Positions 32,032 to 43,803 of a DNA stretch of 51,530 bases are shown here, piece after piece. This stretch comes from Bacteroidota bacterium (GTDB lineage Bacteria > Bacteroidota > Ignavibacteria > UBA10030). The position numbers and the translations under genes were made by a program. How positions within the stretch are numbered: the first letter of the stretch is position 1; each line of letters starts with the position of its first letter. The notes beneath the pieces are model-generated. The model worked only from the letters and a program-made list of their open reading frames with translations, made no database searches and was not told where the DNA came from. The stretch spans positions 1 to 51,530 of the forward strand of contig JAKAJH010000019.1 in assembly GCA_021813905.1 (NCBI GenBank), read 5' to 3'.

Positions 32032-34263
32032 TTGCGGAGCGTAGCTCGAACAACAGGCATCGGACGCGCCGTCCGGTGGGCGTGCGTCGTCTGCTGGACC
32101 GTCGCCGGGTCCGCCGACGCGCAGGTGCGTCAGGCGTCGCTCGCCGAGATACGTCATCTTCCGATCCCGCATCCCGTCGACCGCACGGTGGTCTATCGAA
32201 ACGACCCCGATCACTGCGTTCTCCTGGCCTGGTCCGCCGGTCACCCGGATATCGATCTCATCGACGTCAGCAGCAGCCCGGCCGTGCGGAATGTGCGCCG
32301 GCTCGTGTCGCCGGTGTCTTTTACGGATGTCATCGCTGCCCCGTCCGGGCCATTTCCCGCACCGATCTTCCTTCTTGACCGCTCCCGGCGATCCATCGCC
32401 GTCATCCCGGCGCTCGGCACGGACACGCTCCGCGTGATGCAGACGCTCACAGTGCCGTTCGATCCGACCAGCTTTGTCGCGGCGGATTTCACCGGCGATG
32501 GCCGGCTGGACCTCCTGCTCGCCAATCGGGATGTCCCCGGCATCCTTCCGTTCGTTGGCACCGCGACCGGACGATTGGTGGAGCGCCCCGTGATCGCACC
32601 GGATGATCCCGTCGGCGCCTTCGCGCTCGTCGATCTGAACGGCGACGGCATCGAGGACCTGGTGCTCTTTGATTGGGTGAAGAACGATCTCCACCTGCTG
32701 TACGGCGTCGGCCGCGGTCGGATGATCGAGCAAAGCGTATTTCCGGTGCGTGGAGACGTCACGTCGATCGTCCCCGGCCACATCTCGCCCGGTCTGCCGT
32801 TGACGATGCTCCTCGGCATGCGCAACGCGCCCGAAGCGCAGGTGTGGACCGGAAACGATTTCGGCGAGTTCTCGCTGGCAGGAACTCTCGCGATGACGGG
32901 TCGTCCCATCCGGTTGGATTTTGCGGATGTGAATGGCGACCGACTCGCCGATTTCGTGGGCCTGACAGATGCCGGGACTCTGGAAATCCTCTCATACGAA
33001 TATGCGGCGGGATTCGTGAGCCGCGTGCGCTTTGCGGTACCGGACGGTACGACGAGCTTTGCTGTCAGCGCCGGTGAAGACCGTTCGCCCAGCGGCATCA
33101 TTCTCATGACGCCGGGAGCCAGCGAACTCGCGTTCTATCGGACCGGCTCAGTCACACTGCAGGACGTGGACTCGGTCGATCTGGCGGTTGGACCGCAGCC
33201 GGTGGACGTGGCGACGTCCGATCTGAACCGGGATGGATGGGCCGATCTTGTCACCGTGTGTGCGCGGACGCAAACGTTGCTCATCTCCTGGGGCGACGGA
33301 CGGGGCAAATGGCAGGGGATGACGTCGGTCGGCATCGCGATCTCGCCGGAGGAGTTTTCCGTGTTCTCTACCTCCGATTCGTCGGCACGATTCCTCATCG
33401 GTTCCGGTGACGCTCGCCAGGTGGCGCTGGTGACATTCGATCCAAAAGATACCAGTGTGGCTGAAGCGGTGATTCCGACGGAAGGGAAGCCGTCATTCGT
33501 CGACGGCAGGCCGGGAGACACGCATCCGTCCGATTTCGGAGTGCTGAACCGGCTCACGACTGAGGAGCGAAATGCCCTCAGCCTCTTCCAGGACGCCGGC
33601 CAATCGCGTTACATCGAACGAAGTTTCCGTCTTGCGCCGCCGAACGTGCTCCTCGGCGCCTCGATCGCTGACGTGAATGCGGACAGCCTGCCCGACATCC
33701 TGTACGCGTATCGCCCCGGCGACTCCGCGGTGGTGGAGCTGGGACTTGCCCTGGGCGACTCGGCGCTCTCGATGAAAACCCGTGCCATCATCGGCGATAT
33801 TCCGGACAGCACCGCCACGGAAGCATCGGTGTGGCCACTGGGTTCCACCGGGCGCATGACACGCGGGCTCATCGTCTGGAGGTCCGGTCCGCCCCCGCAA
33901 TTCTGGTTCGTCCCGGCGGCGACGGATTCGACCTGGAAACCAGCTCAGCCGCTGCGTTCCGCTTTTCAGCTGCCGCGTGCACCTCGTGTGCGGCTCGGCG
34001 ACATCGACGGGGACGGACGTGCCGATGTAATCGTCGGTGCACCGGCGCTCGGGGGCGTGGGCGTCTTCCGAACGGACGGCGACGGCTTTGACGAGTTCCG
34101 TCCGCTCGTGACCGTTGCGGGACTGGTGAATTATGATACGGGAGACATGAGCCATGGCGGCGAGACGGACGTCGTGACGGTTTGCCGAAATCCGGATCGG
34201 CTTCGGCTGTATCGCGGACGCTGGATCCGGGAACAGCTGGCGCACGAAGGGGAGACGCGATGA
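32032..34263 (+). CDS. Exported FG-GAP/VCBS beta-propeller protein
   Basis: A 743-residue protein with a signal peptide (residues 9-30, ending SADA) and a predicted seven- or six-bladed beta-propeller. At least six calcium-binding-type D-x-N/D-x-D-G-x-x-D motifs are spaced through it (DFTGDGRLD, DLNGDGIED, DVNGDRLAD, DLNRDGWAD, DVNADSLPD, DIDGDGRAD). Such propellers bind ligands or carbohydrates outside the cell. The start is a TTG at 32032 with a weak site, so the exact N-terminus is uncertain. It overlaps the metalloprotease gene by ATGA. Confidence 0.88.
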   Translation: MRSVARTTGIGRAVRWACVVCWTVAGSADAQVRQASLAEIRHLPIPHPVDRTVVYRNDPDHCVLLAWSAGHPDIDLIDVSSSPAVRNVRRLVSPVSFTDVIAAPSGPFPAPIFLLDRSRRSIAVIPALGTDTLRVMQTLTVPFDPTSFVAADFTGDGRLDLLLANRDVPGILPFVGTATGRLVERPVIAPDDPVGAFALVDLNGDGIEDLVLFDWVKNDLHLLYGVGRGRMIEQSVFPVRGDVTSIVPGHISPGLPLTMLLGMRNAPEAQVWTGNDFGEFSLAGTLAMTGRPIRLDFADVNGDRLADFVGLTDAGTLEILSYEYAAGFVSRVRFAVPDGTTSFAVSAGEDRSPSGIILMTPGASELAFYRTGSVTLQDVDSVDLAVGPQPVDVATSDLNRDGWADLVTVCARTQTLLISWGDGRGKWQGMTSVGIAISPEEFSVFSTSDSSARFLIGSGDARQVALVTFDPKDTSVAEAVIPTEGKPSFVDGRPGDTHPSDFGVLNRLTTEERNALSLFQDAGQSRYIERSFRLAPPNVLLGASIADVNADSLPDILYAYRPGDSAVVELGLALGDSALSMKTRAIIGDIPDSTATEASVWPLGSTGRMTRGLIVWRSGPPPQFWFVPAATDSTWKPAQPLRSAFQLPRAPRVRLGDIDGDGRADVIVGAPALGGVGVFRTDGDGFDEFRPLVTVAGLVNYDTGDMSHGGETDVVTVCRNPDRLRLYRGRWIREQLAHEGETR

Positions 34264-35942
34264 TCCGCCGTGCATGTCCGCAACGCCGGTTCGGCTCGGG
34301 GATGATGTCGCTCTTCGTTCTCGGGGCGCTTCTGGGAATGCCGCCGCAACGCGCGGCAGGGCAGGACGCGCGAATGATTGCCGCTCAATTCCGTGCGGTG
34401 CGGGCAGGAGAACGTCCTTCGCTTGCGGACGGAAAGTGCGGATTCAGCTGGGCTGCACGAATGGCCACCGCGGCCCGGCGGGCAACCCCGGCGGACGCTC
34501 AGGCACTCTTCTCGCTGATGCAGCCCGCGGCCATGCAAGCGGATACGGTAATCGGGCACTTCCGCATCGCATTCGACTCGACCGGCATTGATGCGCCGGC
34601 GCTGCTGGATGGCTCGGGTCAGCGGATCCCGGGATCGGCGCTCGCGTTCGTCGATTCGGTCGGCCGCATCTTTAACGAGGTGTGGTCCGTCGAGGTCGAC
34701 CGGATGGGATTCGATCCGCCCCCGCTGGCGGTGGACGGATATTACCATCTCACGATTCGGGAAGAGGGGACGTCCTACTACGGCATGACGAACTTCGAAG
34801 ATCCGCCGATCAATCCGGGCGCAACGCCGCTTCGATACAACACCAACATAGAGATCGACAACGACTTTAAAGGATTCTACAGCAGCGGCATGAAAGGCCT
34901 CGAGGTAACAGCCGCGCATGAATTCAATCATGCCATTCAGGTTGGTGCATACGGTTTCTGGGATGCGGATGTGTACGCCTACGAGCTGACCTCCACCTGG
35001 CTGGAGGACGCAGTCTATCCCGGCGTGAACGACTACTTCCAGTACCTGAACGACTTCTTCACGGGCTTCCGGGCGGGACGATCATTTTACGACCCGACGT
35101 ATCCCGGCTACGAGCGATGTGTGTGGGGACATTTTCTGGCGCGGGAATTCGGCGTGCGCACCATGCCGTCCGTCTGGAAACGGATGGCGGAGGAACGTTT
35201 TCTGCCGGCGACCGACGCCGCGCTGCGCGCGCTGGGCAGCGATCTCGCAGACGCATTTGCGGAATTTGCGTACTGGAACTACTATACCGCCGATCGCGCC
35301 GACACGGCACGGTTCTACCCCGAAGGATGGGCCTATCCGCGGTTCGTGCCCGCGCAGGAGGTCGATTTCATCGGCGGATCGGCAAGCGCGCAGGTGAGCG
35401 CATTTCCGTTGTCCCTGACGATGGACGCATTCGCGGTTCAGGGTGACACGCTCACGACGCTCGTGACGAACACGGACGTAGCCTCGGCTCTTGCCGCCTC
35501 CACCACGGCGTCCGCCGTCACGATCAAGGTCTCGACGGGGAATCCCGGGGTGCCGTATCAGGTGCTCGGTGACGGCTTGCGCGTGGGAATCTCCGGCACG
35601 GACACGCCGAACTGGCGTTCCGAATACTTCAGCGCCTCGCTGCGCGGTGATGCTCCGCGGATGGCCGGTGATCCGTTTCCCAATCCGGTCGTGGTAAATC
35701 GTGACCGGCAACTGTTTCTCCCGGTCGACGGGGCCGCGGTCGGGCAGTCGGCGGAAGTATTGATGCTTTCCACGTCCATGAATCGAGTGTTGCAGCGTGA
35801 ATTTCCCGTGGTTGCCGACCGCGGAAGGTCGGGGATCATCGTGCCGACGGATCTGCTCGATGGCGCGTCGAGCGGAGTTCATTTCGTGACCGCCCGGATT
35901 GCCGGGAAAGCATATCTCTGGAAGGTGGCAGTGATCCGATGA
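34260..35942 (+). CDS. Exported HEFNH zinc metalloprotease with type IX-like C-terminal domain
   Basis: A 560-residue protein resembling the MXAN_6640 family of putative metallopeptidases. A signal peptide (to AAG near 34) is followed by a protease domain with HEFNH (residues 220-224), then NFEDPPINPG and the Trp-rich YELTSTWLED segment. After a beta-rich region the last 90 residues begin with DPFPNPV and end in GVHFVTARIAGKAYLWKVAVIR, the pattern of a type A sorting domain used by the type IX secretion system in Bacteroidota. It is translationally coupled to the propeller protein. Family recognition is from memory. Confidence 0.82.
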   Translation: MIRRACPQRRFGSGMMSLFVLGALLGMPPQRAAGQDARMIAAQFRAVRAGERPSLADGKCGFSWAARMATAARRATPADAQALFSLMQPAAMQADTVIGHFRIAFDSTGIDAPALLDGSGQRIPGSALAFVDSVGRIFNEVWSVEVDRMGFDPPPLAVDGYYHLTIREEGTSYYGMTNFEDPPINPGATPLRYNTNIEIDNDFKGFYSSGMKGLEVTAAHEFNHAIQVGAYGFWDADVYAYELTSTWLEDAVYPGVNDYFQYLNDFFTGFRAGRSFYDPTYPGYERCVWGHFLAREFGVRTMPSVWKRMAEERFLPATDAALRALGSDLADAFAEFAYWNYYTADRADTARFYPEGWAYPRFVPAQEVDFIGGSASAQVSAFPLSLTMDAFAVQGDTLTTLVTNTDVASALAASTTASAVTIKVSTGNPGVPYQVLGDGLRVGISGTDTPNWRSEYFSASLRGDAPRMAGDPFPNPVVVNRDRQLFLPVDGAAVGQSAEVLMLSTSMNRVLQREFPVVADRGRSGIIVPTDLLDGASSGVHFVTARIAGKAYLWKVAVIR

Positions 35943-36586
35943 ACGATTTGATCCTCAGCGTTCACGGTCTCGCCCGATCCTTCAACCGACGACTGGTCTT
36001 CAAGGACCTCGACTTTTCGGTCGCGGCGCCGGGATCGCTTGCGATCACCGGAAAGAACGGCGCGGGCAAATCCACCCTCGTCAAGATCCTTGCCGGCATT
36101 GCCAGCCCCACGAAGGGCCGGGTCACGTATACGGCCGACGGGAAGGCCGTCGACGCCGACGCGCTCCGGGAGCGCATGGGATTTGTGGCACCGTACTTGA
36201 ACCTGTATGAAGAATTCACAGCCTGGGAGAACCTCGCCATCCTCGGGCGCATCCGTACCGGGACGGTACCGTCTGCGGAGCAGATCGGTGACACGCTGCG
36301 GCGCGTCGATCTCTGGCAGCGCCGGGACGATCTGGTGGCCGGCTTCTCCTCCGGGATGAAGCAGCGACTGAAGTATGCGATGGCGATTCTCGATGCGCCC
36401 GCGATTCTGTTTCTCGACGAACCGACGGCGAATCTGGATGCCGACGGCATCGCGATCGTGGAGACGGTGGTGCGGGATCAGCAGCGTCACGGGATCCTGA
36501 TCCTGGCCACGAACGATGAAAGTGAAGCGTCGTGGTGCCGGGAGCGGATTCATCTCGCCGGTCGCGGAACGGACGCACGGCCGTGA
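35939..36586 (+). CDS. ccmA: ABC transporter ATPase CcmA (heme exporter, cytochrome c maturation)
   Basis: A 215-residue ATPase with Walker A GKNGAGKST (residues 38-46), a signature-type GFSSGMKQRLKYAMAI and Walker B ILFLDEPTANLD. It energises release of heme-loaded CcmE from CcmC with CcmB in System I cytochrome c biogenesis. It begins inside the previous stop (ATGA) and is followed by ccmB, ccmC, ccmD and ccmE in the canonical order. A generic ABC ATPase is unlikely given that context. Confidence 0.92.
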   Translation: MNDLILSVHGLARSFNRRLVFKDLDFSVAAPGSLAITGKNGAGKSTLVKILAGIASPTKGRVTYTADGKAVDADALRERMGFVAPYLNLYEEFTAWENLAILGRIRTGTVPSAEQIGDTLRRVDLWQRRDDLVAGFSSGMKQRLKYAMAILDAPAILFLDEPTANLDADGIAIVETVVRDQQRHGILILATNDESEASWCRERIHLAGRGTDARP

Positions 36587-36619: not shown

Positions 36620-36627
36620 GACCGTTG

Positions 36628-37299
36628 ATGAACGCTTTGACGCAGACGGCGGCGCTTGTGGCCAAGGACGTGCGGTCGGAACTCCGCACGCGTTACGCGC
36701 TCAACGCCCTCCTGATGTTCGTGATCACGTCGGTGGCCACCATTCTGTTCGCCCTGCGCGAAGATCCGGCATCGCCGGAGGTGCTCGGCGGCATGTTCTG
36801 GGTGGTGGTGTTCTTCAGCGCCATGTCGGGACTCTCGCGCATTTTTGTCAGTGAGGAGGAAAAAGGGACGGCGCTGACGCTGCAACTCATTGCCCGGCCG
36901 ACGGTGGTGTACTTCGGCAAGCTGCTGTTTAATTGCGGTCTGACGCTGATCCTGACGACCGCGATCACGGTGCTTTACGTGCTGATCTTTCCGCAGTTCA
37001 CGGTCCAGTCCGTTCCGATCTTTGCGGCGACAGTCGTGCTGGGAAGCCTCGGATTTGCCTCGGCGGCGACGATCATTGCGGCGATCATCGCGAAAGCGAA
37101 CACGAGAGGAACTTTGTATCCGGTGCTGTCGTTCCCAATCCTGATTCCGCTCCTGATGACCGTGATGAAATCCACCGCGCGGGCCCTGGCCGGCGAACCG
37201 TTGGTGAGCGCCCTCGGCGAATTGCAGGTGCTTGTGTCGTACGTGCTCATCATGACCGGCGGATCATTCCTCCTTTTTGATTACGTGTGGAAGGACTGA
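36628..37299 (+). CDS. ccmB: Heme exporter membrane protein CcmB
   Basis: A 223-residue protein with six hydrophobic segments. The N-terminal KDVRSELRTRYALNALLMF and the following SEEEKGTALTLQLIARPTVVYFGKLLFN are CcmB landmarks. It forms the membrane subunit of the CcmAB complex. TTG 36625 just before it is an alternative start. Its C-terminus ends two bases from the ccmC ATG. Confidence 0.92.
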   Translation: MNALTQTAALVAKDVRSELRTRYALNALLMFVITSVATILFALREDPASPEVLGGMFWVVVFFSAMSGLSRIFVSEEEKGTALTLQLIARPTVVYFGKLLFNCGLTLILTTAITVLYVLIFPQFTVQSVPIFAATVVLGSLGFASAATIIAAIIAKANTRGTLYPVLSFPILIPLLMTVMKSTARALAGEPLVSALGELQVLVSYVLIMTGGSFLLFDYVWKD

Positions 37300-37300
37300 C

Positions 37301-38005
37301 ATGCGCGCTGTGAAGATCCTCTCCGTCACTTTGATCACACTCGTGCTGATCGGGGGCATTGCCATTCCGCTGTCGCCGGTGCCGCAAAGCTGGTTTGAAT
37401 TCCCGGTGATTCCGGGGCTCGAAGACAAGGCGCGGAACATCCTGTTCCACGTGCCGATCGCCTGGACGACGGTGCTGGCGTTCCTGGTCTCGCTGTGGTA
37501 CGGCATCCGGTACCTGCGGACGAAGGACCTGGCGTACGATCTCCGCTCGGTGTCTTCGGCGGGACTGGGGCTGATGTTCTGCATACTGGCGACGATCACG
37601 GGTTCGCTGTGGGCGAAGTTCAACTGGGGCTCGTTCTGGAACTGGGATCCGCGTGAAACGTCGATCTTCGTGCTGCTGCTGATCTACGGCGCATATTTCG
37701 CCCTTCGGTCGGCGCTGGGATCGGACGAAGTGCGGGCGCGTCTGTCGGCGGTGTATGCCATCATCGCGGGGCTGACCGTGCCGTTCTTCGTCTTCGTGCT
37801 TCCCCGGATGGTGTCGGGACTGCATCCGGGCGCAAAAGGCGATGTAGAAGGAAGCGGTCCCGTGGTCCAGTTCAAGATGGCGCCGAACATGCGAGTGCTG
37901 TTCTTCGCCGGACTGATCGGATACTCGCTGCTGTTCGTATGGCTGTTGAACCTGCGCGTTCGCACCGCTCAGCTCGAAGAGCGCGCGGACGGCCAATCGG
38001 AATGA
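37301..38005 (+). CDS. ccmC: Heme lyase/export protein CcmC
   Basis: A 234-residue six-TM protein of the HemeHandling family that presents heme to CcmE. The tryptophan-rich periplasmic WWD-type motif is present as WGSFWNWDPRETS (near residue 108). The flanking His of FHVPIAW and the late LPRMVSGLHPG fit the heme-binding His pair. ATG 37301 follows the ccmB stop by one base. Confidence 0.93.
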   Translation: MRAVKILSVTLITLVLIGGIAIPLSPVPQSWFEFPVIPGLEDKARNILFHVPIAWTTVLAFLVSLWYGIRYLRTKDLAYDLRSVSSAGLGLMFCILATITGSLWAKFNWGSFWNWDPRETSIFVLLLIYGAYFALRSALGSDEVRARLSAVYAIIAGLTVPFFVFVLPRMVSGLHPGAKGDVEGSGPVVQFKMAPNMRVLFFAGLIGYSLLFVWLLNLRVRTAQLEERADGQSE

Positions 38006-38012
38006 GGTGACC

Positions 38013-38150
38013 ATGCTCGAATTCATGGCGCAGCATCAGATGTACATCGTCCTGGGCATTGTGCTGCTCATCTGGGCGGGGATCGTGTCGTATCTCGTCC
38101 GGCTCGACGGACGGTTGAAGAGGCTTGAACAACGGTTCAAAAAGGACTGA
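38013..38150 (+). CDS. ccmD: Small membrane protein CcmD-like
   Basis: A 45-codon frame missed by length cut-offs. It has an N-terminal residue set MLEFMAQHQ, one hydrophobic helix (YIVLGIVLLIWAGIVSYLV) and a basic, charged tail (RLDGRLKRLEQRFKKD). CcmD proteins have just this form and help release holo-CcmE from CcmC. It lies between ccmC and ccmE with a GAGGTGA site upstream. Sequence conservation in CcmD is low, so the call rests on position, length and topology. Confidence 0.8.
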   Translation: MLEFMAQHQMYIVLGIVLLIWAGIVSYLVRLDGRLKRLEQRFKKD

Positions 38151-38154
38151 AGCG

Positions 38155-38544
38155 ATGAATGTGAAGGTGATCGTGGGGGTGGTTGTGGTGGTGGCGGGGA
38201 TTGTCCTGGGAGCGGTGAACTTTCTGGAGTCGAACGTCGAATACGGCGACTTCGCGGCGGCGCGGAAGACGCACAAGAAGATTCAGGTCAAGGGCGAATG
38301 GATGCGGGACATGGAATCGAACTTTGACGCGCAGAACGTCCGGTTCGCCTTCTTCATGAAGGATGACAACAACGAAGTCGTCAAAGTCGTCCTGGACGGC
38401 GCGCGGCCGAACAATTTCGAGCTGGCGACCAGCCTGGTCGCCAAAGGCACGTTTCAGGACGGATATTTTCATGCGACGGAGATCCTCACGAAGTGTCCGT
38501 CCAAGTACGAAGGAACCGCGCAGGATGTGAAGAAAACCTCCTGA
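38155..38544 (+). CDS. ccmE: Heme chaperone CcmE, Cys-type variant (CxxxY)
   Basis: A 129-residue protein with an N-terminal TM anchor (residues 4-22) and a periplasmic OB-fold. The canonical heme-attaching motif H-x-x-x-Y is replaced by Cys114-Pro-Ser-Lys-Tyr118 (EILTKCPSKY). This CxxxY form characterises the System I* variant found in archaea and some sulfate reducers, which also lacks CcmH. The other hallmark segments (VKGEWM, FKAEVVVLDGARP-like VVKVVLDGARPNNF, VAKGTFQDGYFHATEIL) are intact, so it should still bind heme covalently, probably via Cys. ATG 38155 lies 4 bases after ccmD. Confidence 0.9.
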   Translation: MNVKVIVGVVVVVAGIVLGAVNFLESNVEYGDFAAARKTHKKIQVKGEWMRDMESNFDAQNVRFAFFMKDDNNEVVKVVLDGARPNNFELATSLVAKGTFQDGYFHATEILTKCPSKYEGTAQDVKKTS

Positions 38545-38554
38545 GGAGAAGGCC

Positions 38555-38830
38555 GTGGTCGGTGGGTGGATCGTGAGGTTGGGATTTCTCGCCGCACTCA
38601 GTGCGGCGTTCTTTTATTATCGGGCACATCGGTCGCCGGGGGAACGGGATCTGCAGATCGCCCGTTGGTCGTATTTCGTGCTGGTCGTGGCGCAGCTGAC
38701 CGCAAGCGCGCTGCTGCTCTTTTTCATCCTCGATCATCGCTTCGAATAGACGAACGTCTGGAGCTATAGCTCCACGACGCCCTCGCTTGAATTTCTGCTG
38801 ACGATGCTCCGGCGTGCCTCGGAGGCGCGC
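38555..38830 (+). pseudogene. ccmF: ccmF fragment, interrupted by an in-frame amber and truncated
   Basis: A GTG start with AGGAG upstream opens a 64-codon frame that reads like the CcmF/CcsA N-terminus: TM1 (IVRLGFLAALSAAFFYY), TM2 (YFVLVVAQLTASALLLFFIL) and DHRFE. TAG at 38747-38749 stands where the family has an aromatic residue. The same frame then continues TNVWSYSSTTPSLEFLL, matching CcmF's periplasmic YVWxYSSxxLP region. Similarity dies out after about 20 codons and a stop follows. The remaining 600 or more residues of CcmF are absent. A sequencing error could explain the TAG but not the missing rest. Confidence 0.7.
38759..38774. repeat. 16-bp perfect palindrome in the ccmF fragment
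   Basis: TGGAGCTA-TAGCTCCA is perfectly self-complementary. It starts 9 bases after the amber codon, in the stretch that still aligns with CcmF, so it may be coincidental codon choice; an operator or recombination scar is possible. Confidence 0.45.
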
Positions 38831-38879
38831 CGCGGACTCCACCCGGTCGAGTGACCTGGTTGCCGTTCACGGGGTACCG

Positions 38880-38913
38880 GAATGTCGCCGGAGGTTGATC
38901 CCCGGCGACATTC
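38880..38913. terminator. Hairpin terminator-like structure at the convergent ccm/cus junction
   Basis: GAATGTCGCCGG (38880-38891) and CCGGCGACATTC (38902-38913) form a perfect 12-bp stem with a 10-base loop. It lies 7 bases beyond the cusA stop. The right side is followed by GCGTTTCTC, a weak T-tract only, so termination strength is uncertain. Confidence 0.6.
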
Positions 38914-38920
38914 GCGTTTC

Positions 38921-41900
38921 TCATCCCTCCTTCAGCCACCCGGCCATGCTGGACAGCTTCAGGCGACCGTGCTTGAGCGCGGATTCCTTCATCAGCCGGA
39001 AGAGTACCGGAGTCACGATCAGCACGTGAATGGTCGATGTGATCAAACCGCCGATCATAGGCGCCGCAACCGGACGCATCATGTCGGCGCCAACGCCCGT
39101 GGACCACATGATGGGGATCAATCCGATGAGGCTGGTGGCGACGGTCATCACCTTGGGGCGCAGCCGAAGCACCGATCCCTCGATCGTGGCTTCGCGGATA
39201 TCCTCGACGGTGATCGGACCGCGGAGCCCCTGCTCGGCGGCGTGAATGCGGCGGTCCAGCGCTTCGTGCAGATACACCACCATGACCACGCCCGTTTCCA
39301 CCGCCAGTCCGTAGAGCGCGATGAACCCCACCCAGACGGCGACCGAGAAGTTGTATCCGAGCGCGTATATGAAATATACGCCGCCGATCAGCGCGAAGGG
39401 GACGGACAGCATAACGACGCCGGCTTCCGAGAAATCCTTCGTCACAAAGTACAGCATCAGAAAGATCACGACGAGTACGATCGGCATGATGAGCGCGAGC
39501 CGGTCACGTGCGCGGATCTGATTTTCCCACTGACCGCTCCACAGGACCGTATACCCGGCCGGAAGGCGCAGCGATGCGTCCAGCGCCTGTCGGGCGTCAT
39601 GCACAAAGCTTCCCATGTCGCGTCCCCGCACGTTGAGATACACGATGGAACGCAATTGCGCGTTCTCGCTCGAGATCATCGGGGGACCGGACGTCACAGA
39701 AATGCGTGCGAGCTGTCCCAGCGGGAGGTAGGTCCGTTTCCATTGCGGAAAGACGGAGGACGTTCTTGTGCTCGTGGAGGATGTCGGCATCGCTGCGGAC
39801 GACGCGTCCCCCATGGTCATTCCCGCACTCCGCGACGTCTGTGGTTCCGTTCCCGCAGTCAGGCCGGCGGATGTGCCCGCAGGGATGTTGACCGGGACCA
39901 GGAGATTCCGGAGCGCTTCCGGGCTGCTCCGCCAGTCTCGCGCATAGCGCACGCGGATGGGGAACCGTTCCCGGCCGTCGATCACGGTCCCGATGTTTTC
40001 GCCGCCGATGGCCGTCTCGATCACATCCTGCACGTCTCCCACGTTGATGCCGTATCGTGCGACGGTCTCGCGGTCCACATCGATATCAATGAATTGTCCT
40101 CCTTCGATGCGTTCCGCGTACAGGTCCGCGGCGCCAGGGACGGTGCGGAGGATCTGTTCGGCCTTCACCGCGAGCTGCTCGAGCGTGTCAAGATCCGGTC
40201 CGAAGATCTTGACGCCGAGGTCGGTCCGCACACCGGTGGACAGCATGTTGATCCGGTTGATGATCGGCTGCGTCCAGCCGTTGCGGACGCCGGGGATCTG
40301 CAGCTTCGCGTCCAGTTCCGCGATGATGTCATCCTTGGTGATTCCCTTGCGCCACTGGTCGCGCGGCTTCAGCATGATGATGGTTTCGATCATGCTGACC
40401 GGCGCGGGATCGGTCGACGTCTCGGCCTTTCCGGCCTTGCCGAGCACCGTCTCCACCTCCGGTACGGATCGGATGATCGCGTCCTGCACCTGCATGATCC
40501 GGTTGACTTCCGTGATCGAGGCGGAGGGAAGAGTGACCGGCATGAACAGCAGGCTCCCTTCGTCCAGCGGCGGCATGAACTCCGATCCGGTGTGCATGAT
40601 CATCGGGATGGTGATCAGCAGGGCGACCACGTTGATGGCCAGCGTCGTCTTGGGCCAGCGGAGGACCCAGTGGATGATCGGGGCATACAGCCGGTGCAGC
40701 ACGCGGCTGATGGGATTCTGATCCTCCGTGCGAAAATGTCCGCGGGTGAACAGCGTCATCAGCACCGGCACGAGCGTGATGGCGATGATCGCGGAGCCGG
40801 CGAGAACGAACGTCTTCGTGTAGGCCAACGGACGGAACAACTTTCCTTCCTCTCCGTCCAGCAAAAAGACAGGGAGGAAGGAGACCACCATGATGGCGAC
40901 CGAGAAGAAGATTGCCGGCCCGACCTGGCGGGCCGAACGGATCGAGATGTCCACATAGTCCTGCGATGCCAGATGCCCTTTTTCGGCCTGGACGCGGGCG
41001 ACATTGCGGTAGGCGTTCTCCACCATGACAATGGACGCGTCGACGATGACTCCGATGGCGATGGCAATTCCGCCCAGCGACATGATGTTGGATGTGATCC
41101 CGAGCGTCTTCATGCCGATGAACGCAATCAGCACGGCGACCGGAATCTCGATGATGACCCGCAGGACGCTCCGCACATGCAGCAGGAACAGCATGACGAT
41201 AAGACTGACGACGATGGCTTCCTCGATGAGCGTGCCGCGAAGCGTCTTGACCGCGGCCATGATCAGAGAAGACCGGTCGTACGCCGTGTGGATCGTCACG
41301 CCGGGAGGCAGGCCGGGTTTGATCTCTTCCAGCCGCTGCTTCACACGCGCGATCACGTCCGCGGCGTTCTCTCCCTGCCGCATCACGACGATGCCGCCGA
41401 CGACTTGGCCTTTGCCGTCTTTCTCAAGCGAACCGCGTCGGATGTCCCCTCCCAGCTGGACGGTGGCGATGTTCCGGACGAAGACCGGAACGCCGCTCGG
41501 ACTTGTGCCGACGACGATGTTGTCAATGTCAGTTATCGATGTGATGTACCCCTGACCGCGCACGAAGTATTCGGCGCCCGACATTTCGAGCAACTTGCCG
41601 CCAACCTCGTTGTTGGATCGCATCACGGCCGTGCGGATGGCGGCGATCGTGACGCCGTATGCCTTCATCTTGATCGGATCGACGTCGATCTGATACTGAC
41701 GTACGTATCCTCCCACGGACGCCACTTCCGCCACGCCGGGGACGCCCTGCAGATTGAGCTTGATATACCAGTCCTGGACGGCTCGGAGGGTGCCGAGATC
41801 CTGCGGCCCTTCGACCGTGTACCAGTAAACATGTCCGACGCCGGTGCCGTCAGGGCCGAGCGTGGGTGTCGCGCCGGGCGGGAGGGTGGACTGGACAGTC

Positions 41901-42244
41901 GCAAGCCGCTCCAGCACGCGGCTGCGCGCCCAGTACAGATCGGTCGATTCGTTGAAGATGATGTAGACGAAGGACATGCCGAACATGGACTGCGCCCGGA
42001 TCGCCTGCACCTCCGGTACGCCCTGGAGCGCCGTCACCAGCGGGAAGGTTACCTGGTCTTCCACCAGTTTCGGAGAACGTCCCATCCATTCGGTGTAGAC
42101 AATGACCTGATTCTCCGAGAGATCGGGGATCGCATCCAGCGGCGTGTGGTACACCGCCCAAATGCCCCAGGCGGCAACGGCGACGAACACGATCAGAATG
42201 AGGAACCGGTTCTTCGCGCTGAAATCGATGATGCGTTCGATCAT
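38921..42244 (-). CDS. cusA: Cu(I)/Ag(I) efflux RND transporter CusA
   Basis: A 1107-residue heavy-metal RND pump. TM4 reads GGIAIAIGVIVDASIVMVENA, the Cus-type proton-relay sequence. The three methionine-relay segments match CusA: LLFMPVTLP, SMIETIIMLKP and NRINMLSTG. It pumps metal from periplasm/membrane to the outside through CusB and CusC. It is 60-70 residues longer than usual because of a Ser/Thr/Met/Gly-rich insert at residues about 783-831 (SAGMTMGDASSAAM). It overlaps cusB by ATGA. AAGGGG lies 7 bases before the start. Confidence 0.95.
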   Translation of the reverse strand: MIERIIDFSAKNRFLILIVFVAVAAWGIWAVYHTPLDAIPDLSENQVIVYTEWMGRSPKLVEDQVTFPLVTALQGVPEVQAIRAQSMFGMSFVYIIFNESTDLYWARSRVLERLATVQSTLPPGATPTLGPDGTGVGHVYWYTVEGPQDLGTLRAVQDWYIKLNLQGVPGVAEVASVGGYVRQYQIDVDPIKMKAYGVTIAAIRTAVMRSNNEVGGKLLEMSGAEYFVRGQGYITSITDIDNIVVGTSPSGVPVFVRNIATVQLGGDIRRGSLEKDGKGQVVGGIVVMRQGENAADVIARVKQRLEEIKPGLPPGVTIHTAYDRSSLIMAAVKTLRGTLIEEAIVVSLIVMLFLLHVRSVLRVIIEIPVAVLIAFIGMKTLGITSNIMSLGGIAIAIGVIVDASIVMVENAYRNVARVQAEKGHLASQDYVDISIRSARQVGPAIFFSVAIMVVSFLPVFLLDGEEGKLFRPLAYTKTFVLAGSAIIAITLVPVLMTLFTRGHFRTEDQNPISRVLHRLYAPIIHWVLRWPKTTLAINVVALLITIPMIMHTGSEFMPPLDEGSLLFMPVTLPSASITEVNRIMQVQDAIIRSVPEVETVLGKAGKAETSTDPAPVSMIETIIMLKPRDQWRKGITKDDIIAELDAKLQIPGVRNGWTQPIINRINMLSTGVRTDLGVKIFGPDLDTLEQLAVKAEQILRTVPGAADLYAERIEGGQFIDIDVDRETVARYGINVGDVQDVIETAIGGENIGTVIDGRERFPIRVRYARDWRSSPEALRNLLVPVNIPAGTSAGLTAGTEPQTSRSAGMTMGDASSAAMPTSSTSTRTSSVFPQWKRTYLPLGQLARISVTSGPPMISSENAQLRSIVYLNVRGRDMGSFVHDARQALDASLRLPAGYTVLWSGQWENQIRARDRLALIMPIVLVVIFLMLYFVTKDFSEAGVVMLSVPFALIGGVYFIYALGYNFSVAVWVGFIALYGLAVETGVVMVVYLHEALDRRIHAAEQGLRGPITVEDIREATIEGSVLRLRPKVMTVATSLIGLIPIMWSTGVGADMMRPVAAPMIGGLITSTIHVLIVTPVLFRLMKESALKHGRLKLSSMAGWLKEG

Positions 42245-43803
42245 GGCCGTTCCCCTTTGTCCAGCACGACGAGCGATCCTTCGATCATGTCCATGCCGCA
42301 CGAGAAGCGGAAGGTGCCGGCGTGTTCGGGCCGGAGTACGATCGTGGTGGTCTGATAAGCCGGCAACTCCTTGCGGATGCCGAAATCGCGAAACACCACT
42401 TCACGGGAGCAGTCGGCATCCTCGTCGCGGAAGAAATGCAGCCGAAGCACCTTCCCGGCGTGCGCATGGATCGTGGACGGCGAGTATCCGTCCCGCACAA
42501 CGATGGTCACGTCTTCCGTATCGCTCACGGTCGTCGCGGCAGCAGCCGATGATTCGGCCCGGCCCTCCTGGGCGGCGAGCAGCGGAGCCTGAAGCTGGCT
42601 CTCCGAATCGATCAGAAATCCTCCGGTCGCCGCCACGCGATCCCCGTCGTTCAATCCGCGAAGTATCTGGATGTCGGAGCCGGCTTGCGCCCCGGGGACA
42701 ACGTCACGCGGTTCGAAGACACCCGGCCGGATCTCGACCCACACCACACTCCGATCTCCGGTCCAGAGGACCGCGGATGACGGTACGGTGAGCGTCGGCT
42801 CCAAGTGCGCGATCAGGCGGGCCCGGACAAACATGCCGGGGAGCAGTTCCGCGTCGCGGGCATGGAATTCCGCCCGTGCACGCACCGTGCGTGTGTTCTG
42901 ATCGACCGTCGGCTCGATGAACGTGACGGTCCCTTCCTCCTCCGTGCCCGGATCGGAAATGCTCGCCACGGCCACGGGCATGCCGAGCCGCAGCCACCGC
43001 AGATCCTGTTCATACACGTCCAGATACACCCACGCGCGGGAGAGGTCGGAGATTTCGTAGAGGACCGTGCCTTGGTTCACATATTGTCCTTCGACGACCG
43101 GCCTGGTCAGCACGGTGCCGGTGATGGGAGATTCAAATACCATGGTCGAACGCACTGTCCGCTTCTCCTCGAGCCTGCGCACCTGCTGGTCCGTGAGTCC
43201 ATAGTGGATCACCAGGCGTTCCCGGGAGGCACGCAAGAGTTCCTCCTGAGTGCGGGCCATGCCGCTGTCGGCGGAAGATCGCGCGCTGCGCAGATGCTCC
43301 AGTGCGAGCAGATATTCCTGTTGTGCGGTCACGAGGTCGGGACTGTAGAGCTCGAGTAAAGGCTGTCCTTTCGTGATGCGCTCGCCGGTGACGTTGACCA
43401 GCAAACGCTCGATCCGGCCACTGAATCGCGCCGTGACGGTCGCCTGGCGTGTTTCCGGCACAGCCACCGTGCCGCTGACGTCGATGGATTTCTGCAGCGC
43501 TGTCCGGCGGGCAATCGCCGTCGATACGTTCGCCAGCACTTGCTGCGTGGGGGAGAGAGAAACAGACTCGAGCGATTTCAACTCCGTGGCGCTCATGCCG
43601 GCCACGGCGGATTTGCGCACCAGCGCCATACCGCAGATCGGGCAGACGCCGGGATGATCCGAGATTACCGTGGGATGCATCGGACAGGTGTAATAGTCGC
43701 CCTGCGCCGTTGCCTTCGTGTCCGGTGAGGGAGTGCTTTTCGACGAGCAGCCGGCCACGAAGAGTGCGGCGGCAAGGGCAGCAATGGAAATGAAATATTT
43801 CAT
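42241..43803 (-). CDS. cusB: CusB-type membrane fusion protein with N-terminal metal-binding and C-terminal cupredoxin domains
   Basis: A 520-residue lipoprotein (VAGCSS, Cys near residue 19). It carries an N-terminal heavy-metal-binding YTCPMHP...GVCPICGMAL segment (residues about 38-62). The CusB core follows: barrel-sandwich halves, a hairpin with QEYLLALEHLRSA, and beta-barrel and membrane-proximal parts. The last 85 residues are a cupredoxin-like domain (GYSPSTIHAHAGKVLRLHF, DADCSREVVF, FRFSCGMDM) with Cys/Met/Asp metal ligands. That domain could store or hand on copper in place of CusF. ATG 43803 (GGAG 7 bases upstream) is preferred to ATG 43809. Confidence 0.93.
   Translation of the reverse strand: MKYFISIAALAAALFVAGCSSKSTPSPDTKATAQGDYYTCPMHPTVISDHPGVCPICGMALVRKSAVAGMSATELKSLESVSLSPTQQVLANVSTAIARRTALQKSIDVSGTVAVPETRQATVTARFSGRIERLLVNVTGERITKGQPLLELYSPDLVTAQQEYLLALEHLRSARSSADSGMARTQEELLRASRERLVIHYGLTDQQVRRLEEKRTVRSTMVFESPITGTVLTRPVVEGQYVNQGTVLYEISDLSRAWVYLDVYEQDLRWLRLGMPVAVASISDPGTEEEGTVTFIEPTVDQNTRTVRARAEFHARDAELLPGMFVRARLIAHLEPTLTVPSSAVLWTGDRSVVWVEIRPGVFEPRDVVPGAQAGSDIQILRGLNDGDRVAATGGFLIDSESQLQAPLLAAQEGRAESSAAAATTVSDTEDVTIVVRDGYSPSTIHAHAGKVLRLHFFRDEDADCSREVVFRDFGIRKELPAYQTTTIVLRPEHAGTFRFSCGMDMIEGSLVVLDKGERP

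Follow-up and report, generated by a model that had tools for sequence, protein, structure and literature searches.

Probable recent loss of the operon-borne heme lyase gene ccmF1 in an Ignavibacteria genome with an intact second CcmF

Escherichia coli possesses two paralogous heme lyases, CcmF and NrfE (PMC12285233). According to PMC9084895, with reference to Goddard et al. (2010), the CXXXY form of CcmE is known from systems without CcmH. A Ccm variant with CXXXY-type CcmE and without CcmH is described there for D. desulfuricans and archaea. A literature search on ccmF in Ignavibacteria yielded a single mention only, a CcmF protein in Melioribacter roseus.

The window, a stretch of 51,530 nucleotides, belongs to the genome of a Bacteroidota bacterium (G000; 3,081,359 bases in 90 contigs, completeness 100, contamination 0.15). 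It carries a ccm operon on the plus strand. The intact ccmA (35939-36586) encodes a heme exporter ATPase (TIGR01189, E = 2.7e-34) and is syntenic in relatives. It is followed by an intact ccmB (36625-37299; Pfam CcmB, E = 9.9e-17) and an intact ccmC (37277-38005; TIGR01191, E = 8.2e-26), whose coding start may be located slightly downstream. Between ccmC and ccmE, reading of the sequence revealed a ccmD-like small membrane protein, MLEFMAQHQMYIVLGIVLLIWAGIVSYLVRLDGRLKRLEQRFKKD (38013-38150). The ccmE gene (38155-38544; Pfam CcmE, E = 1.1e-13) is intact as well, and its heme-binding motif is CPSKY, i.e. CXXXY, not HXXXY. No match to CcmH was obtained in a search of the window genome. The system looks like the Ccm variant of the CXXXY type, here in a lineage of Bacteroidota/Ignavibacteria, sharing the CcmE motif and the missing CcmH match with the D. 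desulfuricans and archaeal variant. It differs in the host, a member of the Bacteroidota in place of sulfate reducers or archaea, and in a CcmF that comes from a distant locus.

Directly 5' of ccmA, the window contains genes for an FG-GAP-repeat protein and a putative metalloprotease of the MXAN_6640 family (32032-35942). This pair precedes ccm in nearly all examined family and order relatives with a sufficiently long contig; in G005, a search for the metalloprotease upstream of ccm gave no match. The conserved position suggests that the pair may be functionally linked to cytochrome c maturation or export.

The gene following ccmE is a remnant of ccmF, here termed ccmF1. The classes CcmF1 and CcmF2 were assigned in this analysis by identity to the CcmF1 of G001 (isolate Prado069, JALONE010000036.1; L036:1465-3819), the one other genome sampling the genus, which is 55% complete. 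The ccmE stop codon (38542-38544) precedes the remnant, whose start codon is the GTG at 38555. Directly 5' of this GTG, the sequence GAGGAGAAG (38543-38554, plus strand) resembles a ribosome-binding site. Codons 1-78 (38555-38788, plus strand) represent the N-terminal part, with 44-52% identity to intact CcmF1 N-termini, and in an alignment with the intact CcmF1 of 13 relatives residues 1-78 track the CcmF1 N-termini. The 95-codon stretch matched the N-termini of intact CcmF from relatives over residues 1-86 (44-52% identity; e.g. E = 6.7e-24 and 4.9e-22, the former being the best among relatives in the protein search). Identity to the same-genus protein was 52% over residues 2-85. In the protein search of 60 related genomes and the own one, 58 of the 61 genomes had CcmF-type proteins to whose N-terminus the frame corresponded. 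Pfam and NCBIfam searches with the short frame returned no match above the curated cut-offs. The CcmF-like N-terminus proposed in the first-pass annotation is confirmed, and so is the amber codon. An in-frame TAG (38747-38749, plus strand) occupies a position where CcmF1 of relatives has Tyr, once Phe, and CcmF2 has Tyr. Past the TAG, the CcmF match goes on in frame.

The similarity had been thought to fade about 17 codons past the amber. Only part of this description holds. About 13 codons are truly N-terminal, and the remainder is the start of a C-terminal piece. The tail EFLLTMLRRASEARRGLHPVE with the in-frame TGA at 38852-38854 (38789-38854, plus strand) corresponds to the end of CcmF1. 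Within the remnant, FLLTMLRRASEARR aligns to the last residues of the 13 intact CcmF1 proteins, which read FLLTMYRRLTER in G001 and FFLTILRRVSEARE in G013. A profile was built from the last 50 alignment columns of CcmF1 from the 13 relatives. The tail scored 19.6 bits against it, while the best of 20,000 tail shuffles reached 9.6 bits, and it was the top six-frame match of the profile across the whole window. Near FLLTM, GAATTTCTGCTGACGATG of the window and GGATTTCTGCTTACGATG from the 3' end of the G001 gene share 16 of 18 bases when compared by eye. Loss of similarity thus does not describe the tail.

Since the N-terminal match stops and the C-terminal match starts there, the deletion breakpoint was estimated near 38788/38789. 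The range 38783-38794 (plus strand) was derived from both alignments and the G001 ccmF1 DNA. By arithmetic on the alignments, the gene lacks about 680 codons, or about 2 kb; in the G001 protein of 785 residues, these correspond to residues 79-760. The first 78 and the last 21 or so codons share one frame. The remnant has the operon position after ccmE, the N-terminal 78 and C-terminal roughly 20 residues, and the start and stop in one frame in common with the G001 gene; it differs by the missing middle and by the TAG that breaks its N-terminus. The Cytochrom_C_asm domain with the WWD motif is not found in 38555-38854, where Pfam gave no match and the region is deleted. The CcmF_C domain and the conserved histidines are likewise not in the remnant, the sole genome match being on another contig, C54.

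These data agree with a truncated ccmF carrying an amber, as originally noted. In the remnant, the two ends of the gene that is intact in relatives can be recognized in their original order, and the disabling changes in the coding frame are the TAG and the deletion of about 2 kb. The remnant occupies the syntenic site of the relatives' intact gene, after ccmE and before a convergent cusA. The favored reading, held with considerable confidence, is a fairly young ccmF1 pseudogene with an internal deletion and an amber, tolerated in the presence of CcmF2. The locus is presumably non-functional. Divergence of the retained N-terminus from G001 was as expected from CcmB, CcmC and CcmE (z = -0.19, a low-power test). 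The mean residual in this low-power comparison was -5.8 for G000 versus -7.8 for the intact G001 protein. The apparent lack of excess divergence would be in keeping with a recent event, and decay alone is no proof of lost function.

This conservation, together with a frame and ribosome-binding-like site that outlast the deletion, could also be expected of a small protein in use. The remnant would then be kept as a functional two-helix membrane peptide of 64 residues, or as a mini-CcmF of 99 residues by readthrough of the amber. Such a retention is very improbable, as the WWD domain and the heme ligands are gone and the forms in the relatives examined are either long or absent, short ones being only pieces cut by contig ends. 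The conservation itself is accounted for by a recent deletion. That the short frame is still expressed, its membrane peptide acting on the CcmABCDE-CcmF2 machinery instead of being a dead gene, is equally hard to credit.

The young-pseudogene reading presupposes that the deletion exists in the organism and not in the assembly alone. The 90 contigs and the appearance of a metagenome-assembled genome, shared with the named relatives, would allow for a population with a full ccmF1, in which the assembler left out the central part of ccmF1 or took a deleted minor variant. This artefact is considered unlikely. The join lies within a single gene, whose own two ends retain their order and frame. A random contig join would not supply the gene's own C-terminus. 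An independent TAG is present about 40 bases from the join, and the missing middle is on no other contig. The deletion is inferred to be real in the organism.

Downstream of the remnant, a perfect 12-bp inverted repeat, GAATGTCGCCGG / CCGGCGACATTC (38880-38913), was identified from sequence and fold between ccmF1 and cusA. It is probably a bidirectional terminator shared by both genes. The convergent neighbor is an intact cusA-type RND heavy-metal efflux pump gene (38921-42301, minus strand; TIGR00914, 1151.9 bits), found at the same position in relatives. Its stop codon at 38921-38923 shortly follows the amber, as the first-pass annotation had noted. A rearrangement or an assembly join at the ccm/cus edge had also been suspected there. 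The comparison of relatives argues otherwise, and the join is located inside ccmF1, between its own ends and in frame. In L039, L045 and L046, which represent three further genera of the family, ccmF1 and cusA are immediate convergent neighbors; a single small gene separates the two in L047 and L048. Because the order of ccmE-ccmF1 and convergent cusA is native in relatives, the edge does not appear to be rearranged.

In G001 (L036 1-3819), ccmF1 is adjoined by the bshB1-like deacetylase gene that is located beyond cusC in the window. G001 thus lacks the cus operon at this site, between ccmF1 and the bshB1-like gene, where other genera carry it. Judged from these gene orders, the cus block seems to come and go at the site between ccmF1 and the bshB1-like gene. 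Such a variable neighborhood, with the bshB1-like gene in place of cusA, is what an arrival of cus DNA beside a cut ccmF by rearrangement at the boundary would draw on. That scenario has very little probability in view of the several family genera with convergent ccmF1 and cusA, and of the ccmF1 C-terminus and stop still present ahead of the intergenic hairpin.

The rest of ccmF was expected to be missing and System I to be incomplete, unless ccmF existed elsewhere. The caveat proved to apply in a genome-wide search. With the CcmF_C and Cytochrom_C_asm families, one further CcmF was detected in G000, the stop-free CcmF2 (C54:12399-14660). This protein of 756 residues contains the PF01578 and CcmF_C domains and aligns with the solved CcmF of Thermus thermophilus (6zmq, E = 1.8e-53). 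The WWD motif WGGWWGWDPVEN is found at 236, and the four conserved histidine positions are kept (HPPVLFIG 174, LLHT 259, SVHSF 303, IAHAGLA 490). Full length, with WWD motif and four histidines and without a stop, CcmF2 is predicted to be a functional CcmF. CcmABCDE and a CcmF, the components required of System I, would thus be available in the genome. The CcmF2 cluster (L035 1-10667) comprises a cytochrome b gene and several genes for multiheme cytochromes (Cytochrome_C7 / Paired_CXXCH). A similar CcmF2 neighborhood with the same downstream gene pair is present in G001 (L037). The third Cytochrom_C_asm match (L003), immediately 5' of a hemA-like glutamyl-tRNA reductase frame, resembles HemX, as judged by reading the sequence.

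Other pieces of CcmF1 were sought in the 3.08-Mb genome with E values up to 10. Only the intact CcmF2 and one insignificant match were obtained, so the missing middle was not found on another contig. Replacement by System II (ResB) was also considered, and no ResB match was found in the genome.

It is proposed that the operon heme lyase gene ccmF1 lost about 2 kb by an internal, in-frame deletion, and that the N-terminal part left behind also carries a TAG at a position that is otherwise aromatic. With only the first 78 and the last 21 or so codons left, neither a WWD heme-handling domain nor heme-ligand histidines could be made from the remnant. Heme from holo-CcmE, provided by the intact ccmABCDE of the window, would be received in trans by CcmF2, which would attach it to all cytochromes c of the organism. 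CcmF2 presumably takes over the function of CcmF1. With CcmF2 in charge, CcmF1 would be free to decay, and its loss is proposed to be tolerated because CcmF2 is present.

The distribution of both proteins was compared across the family. A CcmF1-type protein, with 57-100% identity to that of G001, is present in 23 of 32 genomes; in the other nine, G000 among them, nothing closer than a protein of the CcmF2 type or a more distant one was detected. CcmF1 alone was detected in G023 (95% complete) and G011 (97%). Seven genomes of the genera g5 and g9 (94-99% complete) possess the ccm operon with CcmF2 as the only CcmF, i.e. these relatives live with ccmABCDE and CcmF2. In the six of them with an operon end, unrelated genes follow ccmE, and tblastn found no trace of ccmF1; in the seventh, G021, the operon runs off the contig. 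Throughout genus g9 and in G005, ccmABCDE is directly followed by other genes and ccmF1 is absent. In a tree of CcmABCE, G000 groups with G001 as its sister (support 0.995), with g5 and g9 adjacent (0.998 for the joint clade). Since G001, the sister of G000, keeps ccmF1, CcmF1 appears to have been lost at least twice in the family. The window seems to capture an intermediate, a CcmF1 loss in progress or just completed. An order-level relative (G034:C26:35-2362) showed a CcmF1-type match with one in-frame TAG in the genome search; either a further case of a damaged ccmF1 or an alignment overrunning the gene end could account for it.

As in E. coli, a single genome can code for two CcmF-type proteins, of which one belongs to the ccm operon. 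CcmF1 as a specialist for NrfA (CXXCK), lost after NrfA loss, was rejected on the basis of co-occurrence. CcmF1 occurs without full-length NrfA, e.g. in G010, G011, G013, G022 and G025, and G002, G021, G024, G033, G047 and G059 have proteins of the NrfA family but no CcmF1. The presence of CcmF1 here has no tie to that of NrfA, and a simple NrfE-like specialization of CcmF1 for NrfA is therefore not supported.

The locus gives no indication that the cytochrome c pathway is broken or the ccm/cus boundary scrambled, and a false alarm is thereby removed. It appears to be a case of ordinary gene loss, in which the intact second ccmF should keep cytochrome c assembly going. The family offers a small natural experiment, as either CcmF paralogue can be the sole one detected. 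Because either can be detected alone and CcmF1 was apparently lost at least twice, it looks as if one heme lyase could stand in for the other with some sets of cytochromes.
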